From assembly GCA_003151275.1 (NCBI GenBank), contig PLXC01000074.1, forward strand, positions 56,134 through 120,133: DNA of 64,000 nt. Reading direction: 5' to 3'. The notes under the pieces were generated by a model. It ran no database searches and was not told where the DNA came from. It saw only the letters and a program-made list of their open reading frames with translations. This DNA is from Candidatus Melainabacteria bacterium. GTDB taxonomy: Bacteria > Cyanobacteriota > Vampirovibrionia > Obscuribacterales > Obscuribacteraceae. Shown here piece after piece: positions 47,814-62,612 of this stretch. The first letter of the stretch is position 1. Each line of letters starts with the position of its first letter. The translations under genes were made by a program, and so were the position numbers.

Positions 47814-47919
47814 CCAGACGAAGTGTGCGATTGTGATCATCACTGTTTTCATGAGGGTTCCACCGAGTGGCGCCATATTATAATTGGCGGAACAAGGCAA
47901 GATCACCTTCAAGGACTAT

Positions 47920-49785
47920 ATGAATCACCTCAAAAATAATTACGCAGCTCGCTTAATCCTCACATCTGCCTTGACCGCGTTGACCATTGGGTTATCCCAA
48001 GATAACGACGCTCAAGCTGGCAGTAAGCGTCTTTACAGAGGTGGTGTCAGTCAGAGCGTAGCGAACGCTGATCGAATGATGATGAAAGGGAAATATGCCG
48101 AAGCGACCGCATTTTATCAATCGGCATTGAAGCGCAATCCCCATGACGTCAATGCCAACATCGGCTACGGAATGGCGCTGACCAAGCAGTTTAAGCTTGA
48201 TGGTGCCGACGATCAGTTCAACAAAGCTTTAGCGCACGATCCGAACAATCCCGGTGCCCACGCAGGCAAAGCGTTGAACATGCTCAATCGTCTGCAATCT
48301 TCGTCCAATACGATTCGTAAAAACAAAGACTCAATTTTGAGCGATGCCCAAAATGAGGCGCAAAAGGCTCTTGATGCCGATATTCACATTCCAGAGGCTC
48401 ATTATGCGATGGGCATGGTTTACAAAGAGCAAGGCAAGTTGAACGATGCTGCTGGGGAATTTAAGAAAGCTATACAGCTCGATCCGCAGTATTCAGACGG
48501 TTACACAGGGCTCGGCTTGGTTCAATTGCAACAGAACAACCCGAGTGGTGCCAGTACCAATTTTAAACAAGCGATTAAAGTAAACACCGGCGATTGGACC
48601 GCTCACTACGGTCTGGGCCAAGCTTTGTTGAACCAGGGAAAAACAGATGCAGCGCTCAAAGAATTGAATACGGCACAATATCAATTCCCCAACAGCTGGC
48701 CTGTTCGTTTAGCTTTAGGCAAAGCTTACGAAACGCAAGGCAACACTGTTGCTGCATTGTCTAATTATTCGGCATCTATTCAAATCAAGCCAGAGAACGC
48801 AGCAGCGTATTTGGGCATAGCTAATATTCGGGAAACTCGCGGCGATATCGAACATTCGATCGCTGAGCTTCGGTCCGGACTTGAGCTGATGCCGGACAAT
48901 ACGGACTTACAATTAAGAATTGGCGATCAAAGTTTGCGTGTTGAAAAAATCGACGATGCGATCAAGTCATATCAAACCGTGCTCAATGCCAGTCCCGGTA
49001 ATGCAAGAGCTGCCGATGGTTTGACCACGGCGTATTACATGAAGGCGAATAAGGAAACCACCGGTGGTTACTTCGGTGATAACGACTTTGATAATGCTTT
49101 GCAAATGCTTGATCGCGCTGTGCAAATGAATCCGAACGATATTAAGCTTCGTCTTGCCCAAGCTAAGCTGCGCTCCCTGTCCGGCGATGAGGTCGATTTA
49201 TCTAAAATACCGCCTCCGACAAATGATGGCGAGCGCATCAGCTACGCGCAAGCATTGATGGCTCAAAACAGATTCACTGAAGCGAATAATGAATTTCAAG
49301 GCGTGCTAGCTCGCACTCCGAATGCGAAACAAACATTCGCGCTCGCTGATCTGGAATTGATGATTCACGACTTAGACAATGCCCAAGCAGCCTACACCAA
49401 AGCAGCAGCGATGCCTGGTGGTGCGGACCGTGCTCGACGCGGACTTTCACAAGTAACCAAAGCACGCGAATCAGCTCGCAAGAATATGACGCTGGCATCA
49501 GACTTCGCCCGCAAAGGTATGTCAGGAAGCGCAGTGGATGCTTTTCACGACACAGTTTTCCAAAATCCAAAATCTGCCGATGCTCGACTTGGGTTAGCCA
49601 AAGCGCTCGAAGACGTATCGAAAGCAACTCCTGTGCAACTGCGTGAGTCCGCCTTCCAATTCCGCGCCTACGTCGCACTGTCACCGACAATGCCACCAAA
49701 GGAACAACAGCATTTCCTCTCGAAAGCTGAAAAGCTTGATCACAAAGCCGGTAAACGCGAACAAAAAATGACTAAGAACGACTAA
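47920..49785 (+). CDS. secreted TPR-repeat protein, 621 residues
   Basis: Started at ATG 47920 (AAGGA four bases upstream). A signal-like N-terminus (about 1-33, LILTSALTALTIGL) is followed by about 14 TPR units of 34 residues up to near 400 (for example SVANADRMMMKGKYAEATAF and AHYGLGQALLNQGKTDAALK). A Gly/Pro-poor linker and more helical pairs with a Lys-rich end follow. TPR solenoids hold protein partners. No enzyme domain is seen. It is one of five long TPR proteins in this window. Confidence 0.85.
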   Translation: MNHLKNNYAARLILTSALTALTIGLSQDNDAQAGSKRLYRGGVSQSVANADRMMMKGKYAEATAFYQSALKRNPHDVNANIGYGMALTKQFKLDGADDQFNKALAHDPNNPGAHAGKALNMLNRLQSSSNTIRKNKDSILSDAQNEAQKALDADIHIPEAHYAMGMVYKEQGKLNDAAGEFKKAIQLDPQYSDGYTGLGLVQLQQNNPSGASTNFKQAIKVNTGDWTAHYGLGQALLNQGKTDAALKELNTAQYQFPNSWPVRLALGKAYETQGNTVAALSNYSASIQIKPENAAAYLGIANIRETRGDIEHSIAELRSGLELMPDNTDLQLRIGDQSLRVEKIDDAIKSYQTVLNASPGNARAADGLTTAYYMKANKETTGGYFGDNDFDNALQMLDRAVQMNPNDIKLRLAQAKLRSLSGDEVDLSKIPPPTNDGERISYAQALMAQNRFTEANNEFQGVLARTPNAKQTFALADLELMIHDLDNAQAAYTKAAAMPGGADRARRGLSQVTKARESARKNMTLASDFARKGMSGSAVDAFHDTVFQNPKSADARLGLAKALEDVSKATPVQLRESAFQFRAYVALSPTMPPKEQQHFLSKAEKLDHKAGKREQKMTKND

Positions 49786-53100: not shown

Positions 53101-54015
53101 TTAGGCCAATCCCATTTGTTGAACCATGCGCTCGGCTTCTGCCATGTTCGAATTTACTTTGCGGGCGTAGTCGGCGCGATTTGCTGGTCGCTGGGCTGCT
53201 GCTGCCATTTCACCTGGATTGTTGCTATGACCCCGTCTAAAATATGATAGGGCGACTTGAGCGTTAGTTGCTGGATCGGATGCTTGTTCTGGCGTCAGAT
53301 GGGCGGCGGCTAATTCGCCACGGCTGTTGAGTTGAAAAAGTCCAAAGCTGTGTCCGTGATCTCCCACGGCGTGGGGGTTGCCGCCACTTTCTACTAACAT
53401 CGCAGCGACCGCGACAACGGGGTCGACACCCATTCTTCGGGCTACCTCAGCAACGACTCTTGCACTCTCAAGCGCCTGCTGGGGATTTGCTCTCGTCGCG
53501 CCATCATATGTATAGATGCTGCGATGGTCGGATTGATTCCCGTTACTTTGATCGCCATTGCCGTCCCGTTGCTGGTGGTGACCGTGATGGCCATGGTGCG
53601 GATGGTGTGGATGATGAGGGTGATGCGGATGATGTGGGTATTCTTGTCCCTGTCCCTGTCGCTGTCCCTGATTCGGATAAGGATTGCTGAACTCTAGCTG
53701 TTGATTCTGGTTCCCGTAGTAATTCGTCTCATTCGACCCGTAATTAGGACGGGCGTAGTAATTCGAGTCATTCCCTTGTCCCGGTCGGTAGTAGTTTCCT
53801 TGCGGGTTTTCGTATCCCTGTGGGATTTCCATGTATGGCAGCGACTGCTGGTGTCCGTAAATTCTGCCCATGTTTTGATGGTGATAGTCGGCTGACTGCT
53901 GGTAACTGATGCCGCCTAATTCTATGTGCAGACCAAAGGAGTTGTGATGATTGCCATAATCATGGTTATCACCGTCCTGCCTTTCCTGCCTTTCCTGGTT
54001 GAATTGATGCCGCAT
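53101..54015 (-). CDS. lytic-transglycosylase-like protein with His-rich region
   Basis: 304 residues from the ATG at 54015 (GAGG five bases upstream). The first ~150 residues are low complexity (Gln/Asn/Tyr/Gly) and end in a His run (HHPHHPHHPHHPHHGHHGHH), which could bind Cu, Zn or Ni. Then a goose-type/SLT-like lysozyme domain at about 185-275: MGVDPVVAVAAMLVESGGNP with catalytic Glu, HSFGLFQLNSRGELAAA. No signal peptide is visible, although a wall-active domain is expected outside. It is divergent from the RiPP-like locus. Confidence 0.75.
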   Translation of the reverse strand: MRHQFNQERQERQDGDNHDYGNHHNSFGLHIELGGISYQQSADYHHQNMGRIYGHQQSLPYMEIPQGYENPQGNYYRPGQGNDSNYYARPNYGSNETNYYGNQNQQLEFSNPYPNQGQRQGQGQEYPHHPHHPHHPHHPHHGHHGHHQQRDGNGDQSNGNQSDHRSIYTYDGATRANPQQALESARVVAEVARRMGVDPVVAVAAMLVESGGNPHAVGDHGHSFGLFQLNSRGELAAAHLTPEQASDPATNAQVALSYFRRGHSNNPGEMAAAAQRPANRADYARKVNSNMAEAERMVQQMGLA

Positions 54016-54021
54016 GGCCAC

Positions 54022-54523
54022 CTCAGAGTTCCTGTTCAGGTCCAGCTGAGAAACTCAGCTTTCTTTGGACATTGGTGTTGACCGGGAAGCCAACCTATAA
54101 ATATTGCGCTTCAATGATGACAATGGTGTGACAAATCCCAAATTTATTTTAAATGGTCTGGTGTGACAGAGGTGTGGCACGGTTGATCAATCCTTGAATT
54201 TGGACCGACCGACTTGTCGATTTGAAACTTCTGAGTCTCACCTGCGGACTGGGTAATAGTCAATCGGTCACCAGGAGCAAAGTCATTCGGGTGCCCTTCA
54301 GTATCACAGGCTCATGGATTCCTGATTTCAGGATGATGGCTAAGGTGCCATAACTTGGTCACACAAGACCATTTAAAGTGATGGCTAAGGTGAACAGCAC
54401 TCTCCAAAAATTTGCGCGAATCCCTGTCAAGAAATTCGCTTCTCCGTATATAAGCGACAGCAATCAGCAAACATAATGCATTTCTGTGCGAAAAAATCGT
54501 CTAGTCGATAGGGAGGAACTTGA
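54022..54523. other. divergent promoter region of the RiPP-like locus, 230-bp element inside
   Basis: 502 bp with no gene. Two arms of a 33-bp imperfect inverted repeat lie at 54148-54180 and 54345-54377: TTTAAATGGTCT-G/T-GTGTGAC, then 7 nt, then TGGCAC. A third half-copy GGTGTGACA is at 54126. A direct repeat TGATGGCTAAGGTG occurs at 54334 and 54379. The outer TTTAAA on both ends would fit a target duplication, so this could be a small transposable (MITE-like) element or two operators. Confidence 0.6.
54148..54377. mobile_element. candidate MITE-like element with 33-bp ends
   Basis: The two arms face inward, 230 bp end to end, with 19 of the outer 20 bases equal and weaker match inside. No ORF inside. 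Terminal TTTAAA can be a target-site duplication since it is a palindrome. An operator pair is an equally good reading. Confidence 0.35.
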
Positions 54524-55543
54524 ATGTCTTGGGAAAATCAAGCTAGGCCCACTGAACGCGAGAAGTCAGTGGACCTTGATACTCATCTCGTCGGACAGGC
54601 TCTGAATCTGATGGGAGAAAGGCATAAAACCTGCCCTGGTTCGAATAACGGCGCATGGTTGCCTCCTGAGTTGGACAATAAGTGCATCGCAAATTTACCA
54701 GACCATGAAAAAACAGCACCTTCTCACATGCCGCGCTCGTTCGAACCCTTACCAAAAAACGTTGAAGACTCCTTATGCGTGGCTCGATTGCCCCAATCAG
54801 GTGAACCGCCATCGAGGAGTATTGAAGACAATCGATGTGTCGCACGGTGGCCTCAGTCTGGGGATCCGCCACCAAGGAGCAGCGAGGACAATCGATGTGT
54901 AGCGCGATTTCCTCAGCAGGATGATACTGCACCGAGGAGCAGTGAGGACAATCTATGCGTGGCACGTTTTCCAAATCCAAGTGACGCGCCAAGCATCGTT
55001 AATGCATGTGTGGACGTGTTTCCTAATTTGCGACCGAAGCCTTTTGATCAGTGTGCAGCGATGTTGCCAAATGACGTACCACCGTCATTTTATGCATGTG
55101 TGGATAAAATTCCGTTTCCAAACGAAGTCCGTCCAAAATCTTTTGACCAGTGTGTGTCGATACTACCAGAGGTGCCACATTCAGTGACTGGCTGTGTGGA
55201 CAAAATTCCACATCCACATGAGATACGTCCAAAGGAATATGACCTGTGCGTCGCAAAAATGCCGCAACCTGGAGATCCTCCAGTAGTAGTGGATTTGTGC
55301 GTGGCGAAGATGCCGCAACCTGGAGATCCTCCGGTAATAGTGGATTTGTGTGTGGCGAAGATGCCGCAATCTGGAGATCCGCCGGTAATAGTGGATTTGT
55401 GTGTAGCGAAGATGCCGCAACCTGGAGATCCGCCGGTAATAGTGGATTTGTGTGTAGCGAAGATGCCGCAACCTGGAGATCCACCACCTAAATTCGATCT
55501 GTGTGTTGCGACTTTGCCGGAGACTTGGCGGAACCGTTCTTAA
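54524..55543 (+). CDS. candidate multi-core RiPP precursor with Cys repeats
   Basis: 339 residues, ATG at 54524 with GGGAGGAA upstream. No signal peptide. Residues 1-50 could be a leader; C37 stands alone. From C54 to C331 there are 16 units with one Cys each, in the pattern D-x-C-[VIA]-x-x-hydrophobic-P. Older-looking units come first (CIANLP, CVARLP, CVARWP, CVARFP twice), then pairs alternating CVDKIP and CAAMLP/CVSILP. Five near-identical 17-residue units DLCVAKMPQPGDPPVIV close the array, and the last is DLCVATLPETW. Pro, Asp and Lys dominate, so it is probably unstructured. The MNIO-fusion gene starts 48 bp later on the same strand, which fits a precursor with many modifiable cysteines. 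Confidence 0.75.
   Translation: MSWENQARPTEREKSVDLDTHLVGQALNLMGERHKTCPGSNNGAWLPPELDNKCIANLPDHEKTAPSHMPRSFEPLPKNVEDSLCVARLPQSGEPPSRSIEDNRCVARWPQSGDPPPRSSEDNRCVARFPQQDDTAPRSSEDNLCVARFPNPSDAPSIVNACVDVFPNLRPKPFDQCAAMLPNDVPPSFYACVDKIPFPNEVRPKSFDQCVSILPEVPHSVTGCVDKIPHPHEIRPKEYDLCVAKMPQPGDPPVVVDLCVAKMPQPGDPPVIVDLCVAKMPQSGDPPVIVDLCVAKMPQPGDPPVIVDLCVAKMPQPGDPPPKFDLCVATLPETWRNRS
55241..55495 (+). repeat. five tandem 51-bp repeats inside the precursor gene
   Basis: Units start at 55241, 55292, 55343, 55394 and 55445. They differ mainly at third codon positions and at one Pro/Ser exchange. The high DNA identity shows recent expansion or gene conversion. Confidence 0.9.
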
Positions 55544-55591
55544 TATTGGTGCATAATTAAGCACTAAACAGGTAACTGCAGTCGACAAACA

Positions 55592-58174
55592 ATGCCGAGC
55601 GAATTTCTTAGACTAAAATCTGCTATGCCCATTTTGGGAATCGGCTTAGGACTGCGCGGTGAGATTTGCGATCAGATTGTTGCCCATCGTAAGGCGATTG
55701 ATTTTCTCGAGTTTACTCCAGAGAATTACAGAGGTAACAATGCCACCATTAATTGGTTAGACCGATTTGCGGAGCGCTTTACCCTTGTCTCTCACAGTGT
55801 AAGTCTGTCTATAGGCAGTATCGATCCACTGGATCGATCATTGCTGACTACGACTCGATCTTTTGTCAAACAATTCGGACTGCAGTGGTGGAGCGATCAT
55901 CTGTGCTTTACAGGTGTAGATGGTGAAACCGGAAATGATCTTTTCCCGTTGCCTTGGACCGAGGAAACGATAAAACACGTTGCGAGTCGAATTAAAGAAG
56001 CGCAGGAAATCGTCGAACTTCCACTTATCCTGGAAAATATTCCCTTCTATACTCGCATGCCGAAAGGAGATTTCGGCGAAGCAGAATTTATCGCACGCAC
56101 GCTTGAGGAAGCTGATTGCGGTATGTTGCTTGACTTGAACAATCTCCATGTCAATTCGATCAATCATGGATTTGATCCAAAGGAATTTCTAGATCGAATT
56201 CCACTCGAACGAGTTGTTCAAATACACCTCGCCGGACCTGGCACTTACGGCAAGCGCACCATTGATACGCATGGAACGCCGGTGCCCGCGGCGGTTTTTG
56301 ACCTGCTGGACTACGTGTTATCGAAGCAAACACAAGTTAAAGCGGTGATGATTGAGCGAGATCAATACTTCCCTTGCTTTGATGAGTTGTTGAAAGAACT
56401 CAATCATGTCAGGGAAATTTGGGATAAACATTCTCAGTTGAATATGACTCACGCTTCGACAGGTGTTGCAGAACTAGGATCCGATGATTCGGCTTCTAGA
56501 GCCTCGACAGAAGACGGATTGCCAACGTCAGCAGTGGCAGAATTGGCTTTTCTCCCGCTCTCTCGACCTGCGAGCATCCGATCCAATAGCAAGACAACTT
56601 ATGTCAAGGCAGCAGGCATCGGAGACATTGATGATGCCTTAAATGGTGATGGTGCCATAAGTCGCGACACTCATCTCGGCCCGACGTGGAGCGCACGCGT
56701 CACGCGTGCTTCGAATAATAATTCTGCAGTGGACGAATCGATTCGACTAGTCAATTTAGCTCAATATCAACGCCGCTGGTTCGAACTCTGGACAGAAATT
56801 AAAGGTAACGATCCCTGGTCTGTTGATGACGCCGACTATAAGCCACGGTTCGCCCGCAAACCATCTAGTATTGATGGATTTGACCTCAGAGCTCTCAGTC
56901 TGTATGCATGGATGCGAGACAGCAACAGGGACTCTCTGATGCGCAATGTCTTTCCAGCTTGCTCCAAGATTATGGAAAAAGATTGGGGAACCATTCTTTC
57001 GGATTATTTTTACGAATTTCGTCCTCATTATCAGAACAACAGACACATCGGCGATCGCTTTCCTGAATTCTTGCGTAGCCACTGCCCAGAGTACCAAAAG
57101 GATTATCCTTTTCTGTACGAGTTAGCAGATTTTGAGCTTTCGAAACAGGCTGCTGTGCGGTCACATCAATTGACAGAGTTCTGTGGCGATATCTATCTCG
57201 GCAGCGTTGAGCAAATCAAAGAGTGTCGTCCTCTCGTCAATCCTAAACTCCAAATTAGGAGTTTCAACTATCCGGTGGTTGAGATTTCCTTTGCTGTGCT
57301 TGAGGGGAAATCCTATTCAGCCAGGATTCTCGATGCACCTCTGGTGTTTGGGATTCTTCCTCAAAGTTGGAAATCGAAAGTGGTGCGATTGAGTGAACTG
57401 AGTGCGATACTTGTAAGCAGAGCCAGATCCAGCAGCACATCATACTCCCAGTTGATAGCTGCTTGCCTGACCGAACAACAGAGAAATTCTGCCGAAAACA
57501 TTGCTGGTTTCATACAACTTTTTCAGACGTTGCACGACGAGAAGATATTTATCGGTTGTTTGCCGATTCAGCAGGCGCCACCAACTTGGACCAACTATTA
57601 TGAAGCAGTAGCAGACGCGGCACCACATCAAACTTTGTTACACGCTCTTCGGCTTTTAAAGGATGATGAGCAGATACCTGGACTGGCAATTGACCTGGGT
57701 TGCGGAGCCGGACGCGACGCACGCCAACTGCTCAAGACTGGTTGGCACGTGTTTGCCGTGGACAGCAGTGAGGATGCGCTCAACCTACTGAGCAGTTCAT
57801 CAAACGGAAACGGTTGGCAGCCTGAGCAGCTCAGCACCTATCTTGGCAAAATGGAAGATGCACTTCTTCCTGAAGCAGATTTGATTAACGCGGGAGTTTC
57901 GTTGCCCTTTTGTGCTCCGCAAAAGTTTCCTCTTCTTTGGCAAAATATTTGTCACGCACTTAAACCGGGGGGCAGATTTAGTGGACATTTCTTCGGAATG
58001 GATGACGATTGGGCCGTAAACGAAGCGATGACTTTTCAGACTGCATCACAAGTCGAGCAACTCTTTCAAGGTTTTGCAATCGAATGGTTCAATGAATTCC
58101 TAGGTCCCGTCCCAATCGTACCTTCTGGTACCAGACACGGACAGATCTTTGAAGTGGTGGCGCGTAAACTGTGA
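55592..58174 (+). CDS. three-domain MNIO (DUF692)-DUF2063-methyltransferase fusion
   Basis: 860 residues. Residues 14-285 are a DUF692 TIM barrel, the MNIO family (MbnB, TglH, ChrH, bufferin enzymes). Metal-type residues present: H68 (SHSVSLSIG), H103 (SDHLCF), E148-N149 (LENIPF), D181/N183/H186 (DLNNLH), H212, D225/H227 (DTHGTP) and E255. A low-complexity linker (about 290-370) contains a REP-like sequence. Residues about 375-660 fit the DUF2063 partner domain (QRRWFELWTE, then FPACSKIMEKDW, then YPFLYELADFELSK), usually a separate protein. From about 685 a class I SAM methyltransferase follows (AIDLGCGAGRDARQLLKTG, LNAGVSLPF-like motif, LKPGGRF). Inferred: oxidises cysteines of the upstream repeat protein and may also methylate. 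Confidence 0.85.
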   Translation: MPSEFLRLKSAMPILGIGLGLRGEICDQIVAHRKAIDFLEFTPENYRGNNATINWLDRFAERFTLVSHSVSLSIGSIDPLDRSLLTTTRSFVKQFGLQWWSDHLCFTGVDGETGNDLFPLPWTEETIKHVASRIKEAQEIVELPLILENIPFYTRMPKGDFGEAEFIARTLEEADCGMLLDLNNLHVNSINHGFDPKEFLDRIPLERVVQIHLAGPGTYGKRTIDTHGTPVPAAVFDLLDYVLSKQTQVKAVMIERDQYFPCFDELLKELNHVREIWDKHSQLNMTHASTGVAELGSDDSASRASTEDGLPTSAVAELAFLPLSRPASIRSNSKTTYVKAAGIGDIDDALNGDGAISRDTHLGPTWSARVTRASNNNSAVDESIRLVNLAQYQRRWFELWTEIKGNDPWSVDDADYKPRFARKPSSIDGFDLRALSLYAWMRDSNRDSLMRNVFPACSKIMEKDWGTILSDYFYEFRPHYQNNRHIGDRFPEFLRSHCPEYQKDYPFLYELADFELSKQAAVRSHQLTEFCGDIYLGSVEQIKECRPLVNPKLQIRSFNYPVVEISFAVLEGKSYSARILDAPLVFGILPQSWKSKVVRLSELSAILVSRARSSSTSYSQLIAACLTEQQRNSAENIAGFIQLFQTLHDEKIFIGCLPIQQAPPTWTNYYEAVADAAPHQTLLHALRLLKDDEQIPGLAIDLGCGAGRDARQLLKTGWHVFAVDSSEDALNLLSSSSNGNGWQPEQLSTYLGKMEDALLPEADLINAGVSLPFCAPQKFPLLWQNICHALKPGGRFSGHFFGMDDDWAVNEAMTFQTASQVEQLFQGFAIEWFNEFLGPVPIVPSGTRHGQIFEVVARKL
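56686..56716. repeat. REP-like hairpin inside the fusion gene
   Basis: GTGGAGCGCACGCGTCACGCGTGCTTCGAAT: GCACGCG-TCA-CGCGTGC is a perfect 7-bp stem. Related to 18743-18772 and 47784-47813. In frame, it encodes part of the linker (WSARVTRASN). Confidence 0.6.
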
Positions 58175-58186
58175 GGTTCGATACGA

Positions 58187-59758
58187 TTACTTTTCAGACT
58201 TAGCTTCAATTGTTTCCGCGCGCGCATCCATGGAATCTGCGTCAGTTGTCTTACCCATTTTTCGCAATAGAAGAGCATAATTTCTCAGGCTGGCTGCTAC
58301 TCTTGGATCCGAGGCGCCATAGGTCTGTTCGCGCAAAGCAAGTGAGCGCTTATATAATGCCTCCGACTCAGGAAGTTTTCCTTCATCCCTGTAGAGTTTT
58401 GCCAGGTTGTTTAAGCTGTTAGCCAATTCGCCCGGTCGCTGCGTCGCGTATTTTTCTTCTATTTTGATCGCTTCTAGAAATGCTGGTTCCGCCTCAGTCA
58501 GCTTTCCTTGCTCCTTGTACAAAAGTGCCAGGTCACTCTCATTGGTGGCAACTTCGGGATGCTCTGGTCCGAGAGCTTTGGTGCGAATGGCCAGTGTTTT
58601 TTTGAGCAGCACTTCTGCATCAGCGAACTTACCTTGCTGCCGGTAAAGCTCTTCTAAATTGTTCAAAGCAATAGCTAGATTTGGATCTTCTGGTCCCAAG
58701 TTTTTCTCTGTGATTTCCACCACACGCTTCATGACTGGCTCTGCTTCAGCATCTTTCCCTTGTATGTTGTACACCAGAGCCAGATTAGTTAAGGTCGGAG
58801 CCAGGTCATAGTTGTCTGGGCCTTTTAATTTCTCTTCCAAAACAAGAGCACTCTTATAGGACAGTTCGGCGTCTGCGTATTTGCTTTCTTCTTTGTACAC
58901 AGTTGCCAGATTGTTGAGTGCTGTCACTACCGCTGGTGACTCAGGATCAAGCTTCTGGACGATGGCTAGAGCTCGTTTCAGCAAAGGTTCAGCTTCTTCA
59001 AAATGACCTTGCTCTCGATATACACGTGCAAGATTGCTTAAGCTGGCTGCAACTTCCTGGCTCTCGGCGCCGTAGGCTTTCTCGCGAATTTTCAAAGCTC
59101 TTTCATATAAACCTTGAGCGTCCGCTATTTTATTTTGCTCTCGATACACAACCGCCAAATTGTTTAGCGCCACTGCCACCGACGGATTGTCTGGACCGCT
59201 CATTTTCTCAACAATGGCTAGAACTCTTACTAACAGCGGTTCCGCTTGGGCATACTTTGCAGTATCCCGATAAATCGCGGCCAGCGAGTTTAAATTTTTT
59301 GCGATGTCACCATTTCCAGATTTCGCCGCTTCTCTGATTGCAAGCGCTCGTTTGTAAGTCGTCAGTGCCGCATCGATATCTCCGGTGGCGCGATAGAAAT
59401 GTGCCAGGTTGTCCAGGATCGGCAGTATCGCCGGATCATCGTGTCCAACAGCGGCTTCCTTTGCATCAAGCGCTTTCTTGTAGCTTTCTAGCGCTTCCGT
59501 TTTTTTTCCTTGCGCTTCATAGGTCAACGCCAATCCATTCAAAGTAGAGCCAATGCGCGTGTCGTTCGGCCCGGCCGCTTTAGCTTTCGCCAACGCTTGC
59601 GAAAATAATTCTTCAGCATGCTTCAAATCTTTTGTTTTATAAGCGGTTTCAGCGGCTTCGATCGTCTGATTTAAATCAGTTGGTTGTGATTCTGCGGCGA
59701 GCGCGTGGATGGTTACCAGCAAGCAAATGGCCACAGGGATAGTAAACTTGAATTTCAT
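58187..59758 (-). CDS. secreted kinesin-light-chain-like TPR protein
   Basis: 523 residues. Signal peptide at 1-22 (MKFKFTIPVAICLLVTIHAL). About eleven 42-residue TPR_12 units fill the rest (for example NNLAVVYREQNKIADAQGLY). The units are highly regular, each with an N(N/S)LA motif and a YKRAL-type second helix. Protein-binding scaffold of unknown partner, periplasmic. Convergent with the fusion gene (12-bp gap), so not part of its operon. Confidence 0.88.
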   Translation of the reverse strand: MKFKFTIPVAICLLVTIHALAAESQPTDLNQTIEAAETAYKTKDLKHAEELFSQALAKAKAAGPNDTRIGSTLNGLALTYEAQGKKTEALESYKKALDAKEAAVGHDDPAILPILDNLAHFYRATGDIDAALTTYKRALAIREAAKSGNGDIAKNLNSLAAIYRDTAKYAQAEPLLVRVLAIVEKMSGPDNPSVAVALNNLAVVYREQNKIADAQGLYERALKIREKAYGAESQEVAASLSNLARVYREQGHFEEAEPLLKRALAIVQKLDPESPAVVTALNNLATVYKEESKYADAELSYKSALVLEEKLKGPDNYDLAPTLTNLALVYNIQGKDAEAEPVMKRVVEITEKNLGPEDPNLAIALNNLEELYRQQGKFADAEVLLKKTLAIRTKALGPEHPEVATNESDLALLYKEQGKLTEAEPAFLEAIKIEEKYATQRPGELANSLNNLAKLYRDEGKLPESEALYKRSLALREQTYGASDPRVAASLRNYALLLRKMGKTTDADSMDARAETIEAKSEK

Positions 59759-61190: not shown

Positions 61191-62417
61191 CTACTTCGAC
61201 TTCTTTAAATCTGCCATCACTCTTGGTGTCTGCTTGCCGTCAATCTTCTGATAAACCTTTGCTCGTTCGGCATAACCACCCGTATATTTTGGGTTCAGTG
61301 AAACAACTTTGTTGTAATCACTGAGTGACTTGTCCGGTTGATTGGCTTTCAGGTAAGCGTGGCCTCTGAGTTCAAAATAGTCGTAGCTATTCGGATATTT
61401 GTCGCAAAGGACTGTGTAATCTGCGATCGCCTTTTTGAAGTCTTTAAGCGCTTCGTAGGCGATGCCTCGCTGAACATACGGCCATGACAGATCTGGTTCA
61501 ACCTCGATTACCTTTGTATAGTCAGCGACTGCTTGTTTATGTTGGCCTTGTTCGTCTTCCAGTTTGGCTTTGGAGCCCATGGCATTAGTGTCTTTGGGAT
61601 TGAGCGCAAATGCTTTTGCAAAATCCGCCAGCGCTTTGGGGTACTGCTTCACGCTTACGTAATAGTGACCTCTATCTTCATATGCATCTGCATAGTCAGG
61701 TTTAAGCCGAATCGCAGTATTCAAATCTTGCAAGCCTTTGGCAAAGTTATCCACCCACAGTTCAGTTTTACTGCGCAAAAAGTGAGCAACAGGGTCGTTC
61801 GGATTAAGTGCAATTGAGCGGTTAAGATACACAACTGCCCTGTCCTGCAATTCGGAATCTATGAGTTTGCCACCCATGTCGCAGCACTTTTTCGCTTCTT
61901 CTATTTTTTGACTTGCAGTCATGTCCTTTGTAAGAGGCGGTAACTTGACTGGCGCGTTAGCGGCTGCGGTGATAGTTTTGATGCGCGCTCTCAATTTTTT
62001 CGCTTCATCTTTCCTGCCCACTTTGTCCAAAAATTTTGCCTGTTCCTCTAGCGGATAACAGAGCATCATCTCGTTCAGCCCTGCGTTTTCTTCCACGCTA
62101 GCGAGCTGATCTTTGAATTGCTGCTCGGCGAGATCATTTTTGCCCCAATTGGCATAGAACCAGCCGAGTGTATTTTGTTGCCCCGACAAATCCAGACCAA
62201 GTTCTTTTCTTTCAGCGAGAATTTTTTTGTATATAGCTTCCGGTTCTTCGAACTTATGCTTTTTGCTAAGTTGCTCGGCTTGTTGCGTCTGTTCCATCCA
62301 CTTGCCGCTCTTGATTTTGATTTCCTCCAGTTGTGCGGGTGTCTGGGTATCGGAAGCGTAGCCAGCTGAGAGAGAAAGGCAGAGAGAAACTATGAGTGCA
62401 GCAGAAATGACTTTCAC
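61191..62417 (-). CDS. secreted TPR-repeat protein, 408 residues
   Basis: I start at the GTG at 62417, which has AAGGAAG seven bases upstream and a signal peptide (MKVISAALIVSLCLSLSAGY) directly after; the longest frame adds 53 unlikely residues. Two helical repeats at the N-terminus (QQAEQLSKKHKFEEPEAIYK) are followed by a hinge (about 150-180) and about six TPR units (DFAKAFALNPKDTNAMGSKA). A Lys-rich end. Scaffold-type protein in the periplasm, divergent from the glycosyltransferase gene. Confidence 0.8.
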   Translation of the reverse strand: MKVISAALIVSLCLSLSAGYASDTQTPAQLEEIKIKSGKWMEQTQQAEQLSKKHKFEEPEAIYKKILAERKELGLDLSGQQNTLGWFYANWGKNDLAEQQFKDQLASVEENAGLNEMMLCYPLEEQAKFLDKVGRKDEAKKLRARIKTITAAANAPVKLPPLTKDMTASQKIEEAKKCCDMGGKLIDSELQDRAVVYLNRSIALNPNDPVAHFLRSKTELWVDNFAKGLQDLNTAIRLKPDYADAYEDRGHYYVSVKQYPKALADFAKAFALNPKDTNAMGSKAKLEDEQGQHKQAVADYTKVIEVEPDLSWPYVQRGIAYEALKDFKKAIADYTVLCDKYPNSYDYFELRGHAYLKANQPDKSLSDYNKVVSLNPKYTGGYAERAKVYQKIDGKQTPRVMADLKKSK

Positions 62418-62612
62418 GATGGTTCTTCCTTGTATGGTGACCATAGGACCTACAGCCAACCTGATGAAATTTAGCGGTGCAGGGTACATTTTAGGTGAAT
62501 AGCAAGCATTACTGCGGTCCCTAAACAGACTATTAACTGTTGCTTTTAGGCACATGGCAACTTCGCAATCAGACAAGCTAGTTTCAGGTCAGTATTGAAA
62601 TTGGAGCGAGAA

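Follow-up and report, generated by a model that had tools for sequence, protein, structure and literature searches.

A 64,000-nucleotide stretch of contig PLXC01000074.1 from Candidatus Melainabacteria, called the window throughout, encodes a Cys-repeat protein of 339 residues next to a fusion enzyme of 860 residues. We predict that this pair installs a new modification on a ribosomally synthesized and post-translationally modified peptide (RiPP), the new element being a methyltransferase carried on a multinuclear non-heme iron-dependent oxidative enzyme (MNIO). MNIO enzymes yield unusual Cys chemistry. We assign even odds (about 0.5) to the reading that the 339-residue protein is a cytoplasmic RiPP precursor whose 16 Cys units are oxidized by the MNIO and then S-methylated by the 860-residue enzyme. 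At the level of sequence and fold, the arrangement is that of a RiPP system: a leader-bearing precursor adjoins a predicted modifying enzyme that contains a RiPP recognition element (RRE). The earlier note on this DNA had described 16 one-Cys units in a protein encoded 48 bp upstream of the larger one, and both open reading frames (ORFs), each with an ATG start, were recovered with that spacing. The features of the pair, all on the plus strand, are as follows.

54512..54516, +, GGAGG ribosome-binding-like site, 7 bases 5′ of the precursor ATG, from sequence reading
54524..55543, +, Cys-repeat precursor, 339 aa, 17 Cys, with relatives P0056–P0058 and in loci L002, L003, L004 and L008
54566..54628, +, predicted leader/recognition sequence SVDLDTHLVGQALNLMGERHK, residues 15–35, pattern matches in 7 precursors
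54785..54966, +, 60-bp tandem repeat, 3.0 copies, SEDNRCVARxP-type units
55245..55482, +, 51-bp tandem repeat, 4.7 copies, 94% match, VDLCVAKMPQPGDPPVI-type units
55592..58174, +, MNIO / DUF2063-RRE / methyltransferase fusion, 860 aa
55637..56419, +, MNIO domain, PF05114, residues 16–276 (Pfam, ligands, fold)
56441..56746, +, linker, residues 284–385, predicted disordered (predicted local distance difference test score < 50)
56747..57574, +, DUF2063-like and RRE-like part, residues 386–661 (mainly by fold)
57587..58171, +, class I S-adenosylmethionine (SAM) methyltransferase domain, TehB-like fold, residues 666–860
57692..57718, +, SAM motif DLGCGAGRD, inside the methyltransferase domain

Domains of the fusion enzyme

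The DUF692 residues noted earlier belong to a well-supported MNIO domain, which scores 288.1 bits with PF05114 (cut-off 25). All nine iron ligands of TglH are matched (H68, H103, E148, D181, N184, H212, D225, H227 and E255) and are invariant across 23 alignment rows (A1), and the model of this part adopts a TIM-barrel fold like that of TglH and MbnB. Its best NCBIfam scores are with BufB (249 bits) and HvfB (247.9 bits), both below the cut-offs of 310 and 360 bits; the ApyH and ChrH models give 127 of 400 and 70.5 of 600 bits. At the other end of the chain, the SAM motif read by the earlier note lies in a domain that matches PF13649 at 40.3 bits (cut-off 27). The closest folds to its predicted structure are TehB proteins, which are chalcogen methyltransferases, and the domain falls short of the NCBIfam TehB cut-off.

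The middle part is assigned differently. The window protein scores 23.9 bits with DUF2063 (PF09836, cut-off 27.2) and 59.4 bits with NCBIfam HvfC (cut-off 142), so its DUF2063/RRE assignment rests on fold and on the ortholog at locus L006, which clears the PF09836 cut-off at 29.1 bits. A profile of the middle domain searched against Protein Data Bank sequences returned PqqD alone, at E 0.59, which again leaves the assignment to the fold. When this part was folded separately, the model contained a DUF2063 plus an RRE fold; the Foldseek list for the full-length model (predicted template modeling score 0.59) is dominated by MNIO and methyltransferase folds. The DUF2063-like part proposed in the earlier note thus stands by fold and ortholog and not by the Pfam score of the window protein itself.

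Repeats and leader of the precursor

Sixteen of the 17 precursor Cys lie in C-[VAI]-x-x-x-P-type motifs. In 2000 shuffles that kept the composition, the motif count averaged 1.3 and never exceeded 6, which rules out a chance origin of the repeat. The many-Cys repeat protein described earlier therefore holds, but CVAKMP as its sole core does not: that exact string occurs in 5 of the 16 units, and the core read from the sequence is broader, being described by C-[VIAT]-x-x-x-P. The units are built on the two DNA tandem arrays. Pairwise codon differences among the five CVAKMP units are mainly synonymous (44 versus 19 nonsynonymous), a pattern that fits selection acting on the peptide.

A conserved leader within the N-terminal 40 residues had been overlooked. 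The pattern [DE]-x(0,2)-[LI]-[VI]-x-[QH]-A-L-x-[LIM]-[MLY] is common to seven precursors (the window, L002, L003 and L004 with two each, and L008), and the leader is also visible in the alignment of P0056–P0058. These seven match the precursor profile at E ≤ 7.4e-8, they or their kin being its seeds. The window precursor has no signal-peptide-like stretch, as judged by run length (longest hydrophobic run in residues 1–40, 3), no EGKCG repeats, and no family in Pfam or NCBIfam up to E 1. The CPxCGxG motif occurs in 0 of 15 precursor sequences.

Relatives in Obscuribacterales

Searching 5.8 billion proteins with the fusion (7992 candidates scored) gave 55 matches: the window protein (P0001), 22 further triple fusions (P0002–P0022 and P0026), three fusions without the methyltransferase (P0023–P0025), and P0027–P0055, for which both PF05114 and PF09836 are listed in 27 of 29 and no methyltransferase domain is listed. 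Three domains in one chain are therefore real and recurrent. The novelty that the earlier note saw in this architecture shrinks to its methyltransferase, as MNIO–DUF2063 fusions without one are widespread. Named loci with the triple fusion come from metagenome-assembled genomes of Candidatus Melainabacteria, Obscuribacterales and unclassified Cyanobacteria. In the order of genome G002, 6 of 53 genomes carry it (G001–G004, G006 and G007), and G005 has a version without the methyltransferase. Among 386 genomes drawn from the phylum, the one match was the seed genome G002, at a limit of 1e-130 that was too strict, since the G007 fusion, in two pieces (3e-126 and 4e-117), would be missed.

In an MNIO tree of 59 rows, 15 triple fusions and three methyltransferase-less ones form a single clade (100/99). 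The methyltransferase-less rows are nested inside it, so the domain has probably been lost in that branch. One such fusion lies at L005:10001–11878, and the precursor profile is empty across the L005 genome. Between the window and L001 enzymes, the nonsynonymous/synonymous divergence (dN/dS) is 0.109/0.542. MNIO domains also occur in frames of 610–768 aa with an extra part unlike the fusion's methyltransferase (G006:C15, G007:C55, G018:C32, G042:C31 and G052:C12).

The neighborhood search suggested earlier did uncover further precursors. Cys-repeat ORFs precede the fusion in L001, where the contig start truncates the ORF, and in L002 (286 aa, 16 Cys), L003 and L004 (two tandem precursors each, 5–8 Cys) and L008 (374 aa, 19 Cys). 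None was found next to L005 or L006; in the L006 genome (G006), a repeat protein is encoded away from the fusion, at the end of a contig. Across 84 units from six precursors, V stands at +1 in 60, A at +2 in 48, K or R at +3 in 50, P at +5 in 72 and P at −6 in 62. By sequence comparison the core evolves fast. Over the first 75 codons, the window and G001 precursors give dN/dS of 0.203/0.731. With the window precursor as sole query against the same 5.8 billion proteins (7996 candidates scored), three relatives were found (P0056–P0058).

A profile of six precursors matched 4 of the 53 genomes of the order, each of which carries the triple fusion, and none of the 47 that lack it (Fisher p 5e-5); the informative part of this co-occurrence is the 47 empty genomes. 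Precursor pieces sit at contig ends in G001, G006 and G007, as expected if repeats break assemblies. The first tandem precursor of L003 (8192–8794) has 200 aa and its near twin in L004 (7996–8826) has 276 aa, a difference that may come from a frame disruption or from misassembly. The L008 genome encodes a second Cys-repeat protein, at a distance from its fusion, at L093:7178–7708 (−), at the end of G007:C21; this protein has PPPEITQCVARSTD units and a C-terminal tail free of Cys.

A second fusion lineage in Sericytochromatia

The two activities are also joined in the opposite order. In L027 and L028 of Sericytochromatia, a methyltransferase (48 and 50 bits) precedes the MNIO (241 and 250 bits) in the same chain, and the ORF that follows resembles a DUF2063-type partner by position and size. 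The full fusion is present in 4 of 18 genomes of the class (G009, G010, G070 and G071), and the protein set holds 27 proteins of this type (P0059–P0085). A Cys-repeat ORF lies beside the fusion in three of these four genomes (G009, G010 and G070); the G071 fusion contig (6.9 kb) has no repeat ORF, and a partly masked ORF containing Cys is found on a different contig.

The two fused MNIO groups separate in the tree, and a single clade is rejected (p-AU 0.0006, in an approximately unbiased test set up after the tree was seen and with two long-branched rows). Methyltransferase and MNIO were thus probably joined twice, in opposite orders, beside Cys repeats. The methyltransferase domains of the two lineages share 25% identity in a profile alignment, as any two class I enzymes might. 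The Obscuribacterales unit profile matches the three Sericytochromatia repeat ORFs at E 2e-4, 3e-4 and 3e-3; among the matches listed, non-precursor ORFs start at E 0.078 and 0.16. At least three strict core motifs occur in 0 of 2457 control ORFs and in 7 of 15 precursor sequences, L027 being the only one among the three from Sericytochromatia. The likeness of the cores is modest, and their location beside the fusion is the telling feature.

A second methyltransferase–MNIO-like fusion occurs in Sericytochromatia at L085:4047–5147, L086:7274–8623, L087:7748–9118 and L088:6905–8263 (all −; 450–457 aa in L086–L088). Its MNIO part carries no SDH iron-ligand motif in any of the four (PWWVLPLALW in L086), and a DUF2063-sized ORF adjoins. 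It is possibly a pseudo-MNIO beside a working methyltransferase.

Separate MNIO genes

A separate MNIO gene is present at 15 loci in the same order (L007 and L009–L022), with a DUF2063/RRE-like match nearby at 13. Their reading as MNIO–DUF2063 double fusions was ruled out, the MNIO ORFs standing alone (288–353 aa); G052:C27 was likewise dismissed as a fusion, having separate genes with an SCK-repeat precursor. Oxazolin-like SCK-repeat precursors, with a signal-peptide-like start by eye, lie upstream of the MNIO at 10 of the 15 loci (L007, L009, L012, L013, L015, L017, L018, L020, L021 and L022). The scan was aimed at that precursor type alone, and among the five loci without a match, L019 begins at a contig edge. 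No homolog of the fusion's methyltransferase was detected at any of the 15 (tblastn, 1e-3, available locus DNA). Going by these sequences, the methyltransferase accompanies the leader-bearing precursor type and not the oxazolin-like type.

Proposed route and known systems

We hold the following route with moderate confidence, the acceptor atom of the methyl group being its weakest step. Docking of the conserved N-terminal leader would fall to the RRE-like part, as the fold of that part and the leader conservation suggest. The MNIO would then carry out a four-electron oxidation of each Cys with the preceding carbonyl to give a 5-thiooxazole, as the related BufB, HvfB and FonB do, and methylation of the exocyclic thiolate by the TehB-like domain would yield a 5-(methylthio)oxazole, for a net change of about −4 + 14 = +10 Da per Cys. 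Tethering in one chain through a flexible linker of ~100 residues may allow a docked precursor to be processed at many sites. The available text of PMC13097082 describes MNIO/PME1 pairs that install 5-thiooxazoles (−4 Da per Lys-Cys) whose sulfur was alkylated with iodoacetamide; by analogy, a SAM-using enzyme performing the same alkylation would give the 5-(methylthio)oxazole at +10 Da overall. Precedents, in the text available for each source, are ApyHI/ApyS, where a methyltransferase requires the MNIO product (PMC10635010), and ChrH, which combines Cys oxidation with S-methylation (PMC10214503). The product probably stays in the cell, because the precursor has no signal-peptide-like stretch and the compared gene neighborhoods have no transporter or protease in common. 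Soft-metal or thiol handling is a guess at its function.

The nearest known systems are the bufferins, oxazolins and fontiphorins (BufB, HvfB or FonB with a DUF2063-RRE partner, PME-type 1), which share the MNIO model scores, the DUF2063 plus RRE fold and many-Cys precursors. Here, in contrast, three domains form one chain with an added methyltransferase, the NCBIfam cut-offs are missed, and the precursor has a conserved leader and C-[VIAT]-x-x-x-P units in place of EGKCG. PME-type 1 partner precursors carry a Sec signal peptide, whereas the window precursor has no such stretch (hydrophobic run ≤ 3). The MNIO–DUF2063 fusions (named ones from Rickettsiales, Alphaproteobacteria and Nannocystis) have the same two domains in one chain; no methyltransferase is listed for them, and they cover 28–36% of the query at 26–48% identity. 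TglHI of 3-thiaglutamate biosynthesis is alike in fold, in the nine TglH ligands and in the TglI fold, but its substrate has one C-terminal Cys where the precursor here has many internal ones. TglH-type carbon excision was rejected as the leading explanation, as the catalytic Asn73 of TglH, two residues after the first His ligand, is an invariant Val70 here.

ChrH, like the proposed enzyme, couples MNIO oxidation to Cys S-methylation (+10 Da net). The chryseobasin-type precursors of ChrH/ChrI and of MelH, the latter from Melainabacteria, carry the CPxCGxG motif that the window precursor lacks, and the available text of PMC10214503 and PMC12636315 mentions no methyltransferase domain. In the aminopyruvatide pathway, an MNIO, an RRE partner and a methyltransferase (ApyHI and ApyS) likewise act in sequence on one precursor; unlike the fusion, they are separate proteins that act on a C-terminal Asp with C-methylation. 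PflD is also an MNIO joined to a second modifying enzyme, a nitroreductase; it hydroxylates Asp and, in the available text of PMC12636437 and PMC13060819, is reported to miss the Fe3 motif whose residues are present here. By description, the putative adjamnio-I precursors (122–293 aa, 8–21 Cys) resemble ours and could be kin; they adjoin an MNIO and a PME-type 2 protein encoded by separate genes (PMC12452194, available text). No MNIO–methyltransferase fusion was found in the available text of the open-access papers searched (subscription papers lay outside the scope), which did contain the MNIO–nitroreductase fusion and separate methyltransferases. The main text of the MNIO landscape paper PMC12452194 is free of the strings methyltrans, cyanobact and melainabacter, and a search for S-methyl or thioether literature yielded nothing relevant in the text available.

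Weighing the alternatives

Several points weigh against oxidation and S-methylation of the Cys units. Sulfur as acceptor is read from the TehB-like fold of the model, and TehB leads other class I methyltransferases, of diverse specificity, by a small margin in score. L005, P0023 and P0025 keep MNIO and RRE without the methyltransferase, which is dispensable there. The four L003/L004 precursors retain the leader and have no strict core motif. In Sericytochromatia, C-[ST]-A-K is found at 4 of 6 (L027), 1 of 7 (L028) and 3 of 7 (L083) Cys, with four strict core motifs in L027 and none in L028 or L083. Among the genomes positive for the precursor profile, two (G002 and G007) were sources of its seeds, the G001 piece matches seed P0056 at every one of 163 residues, and the sole independent positive, G006, has its precursor on another contig than its fusion. 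If the sulfur is methylated, bufferin-like copper binding would probably be weakened. A RiPP system that is methylated elsewhere, on the Lys of the CVAK core, on the backbone or a carboxyl group, or on an MNIO-acidified carbon as in ApyS, is possible although we regard it as doubtful. A class I fold alone is silent on the acceptor, and the Lys or Arg at +3 in 50 of the 84 units would offer one; the other 34 have neither there, and the nearest folds are those chalcogen methyltransferases. ApyS does C-methylate an MNIO product (PMC10635010, available text).

We consider it unlikely that the pair makes a bufferin/oxazolin-type copper chelator in a new package, with copper-binding 5-thiooxazoles and the methyltransferase as a switch or minor tailoring enzyme. 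The MNIO does score best with BufB and HvfB (249 and 248 bits), and multi-site Cys precursors are typical of such systems in the available text of PMC12452194 and PMC13097082. Against this, both cut-offs are missed, the precursor has neither a signal-peptide-like stretch nor EGKCG, and five of the six triple-fusion genomes (not G003) hold a further MNIO, encoded separately, that scores higher with Pfam. A plain bufferin/oxazolin maturase was rejected as the principal explanation on the missed cut-offs and the different SCK loci. It is more improbable still that the Cys-repeat protein binds metal or thiols without being modified, the fusion acting on another substrate and the adjacency being regulatory. 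Unmodified Cys-rich proteins are able to bind metal, the G006 precursor and fusion are not linked in the assembly, and the L003/L004 partners carry 5–8 Cys only, but the conserved leader together with an RRE-like fold, the adjacency in six loci (window, L001, L002, L003, L004 and L008), the empty 47 genomes without the fusion, and the Cys repeats adjoining methyltransferase–MNIO in a second lineage all argue against it.

Window context

Promoter-like sites (3) are not above shuffles (mean 4.9), and terminator-like sites (8, shuffle mean 4.4) were left unused as evidence. The downstream genes of the window share 87–96% identity with those of L001, pointing to a close relative as the likely source of the window, itself likely a non-photosynthetic relative of cyanobacteria. 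Three repeat proteins, TPR-like by eye, lie around the region (47884–49785, 58187–59758 and 61191–62576), and 53101–54021 (−) encodes a long His/Pro-rich stretch (HHPHHPHH) followed by a part resembling, on visual inspection, a lytic transglycosylase.

Implications

One gene here unites a predicted oxidase, leader reader and methyltransferase with a 16-site substrate, a system testable with two genes in E. coli, and it opens the question of how a single enzyme processes a precursor at so many sites. The second, independent fusion in the other order makes the link of both activities hard to put down to chance. The conserved leader offers a handle on DUF2063-associated RREs, for which the available text of PMC12710340 reports no specific recognition motif. 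Tentatively, and with the odds against so complete a version, one polypeptide may bind the leader, turn ~16 Cys into 5-thiooxazoles and cap each as a 5-(methylthio)oxazole, the fusion having been invented twice, among deep-branching Cyanobacteriota, for similar C-x-A-K-type cores. If true, the S-alkylated thiooxazole protein and the all-in-one MNIO RiPP synthetase would each be the first of its kind.

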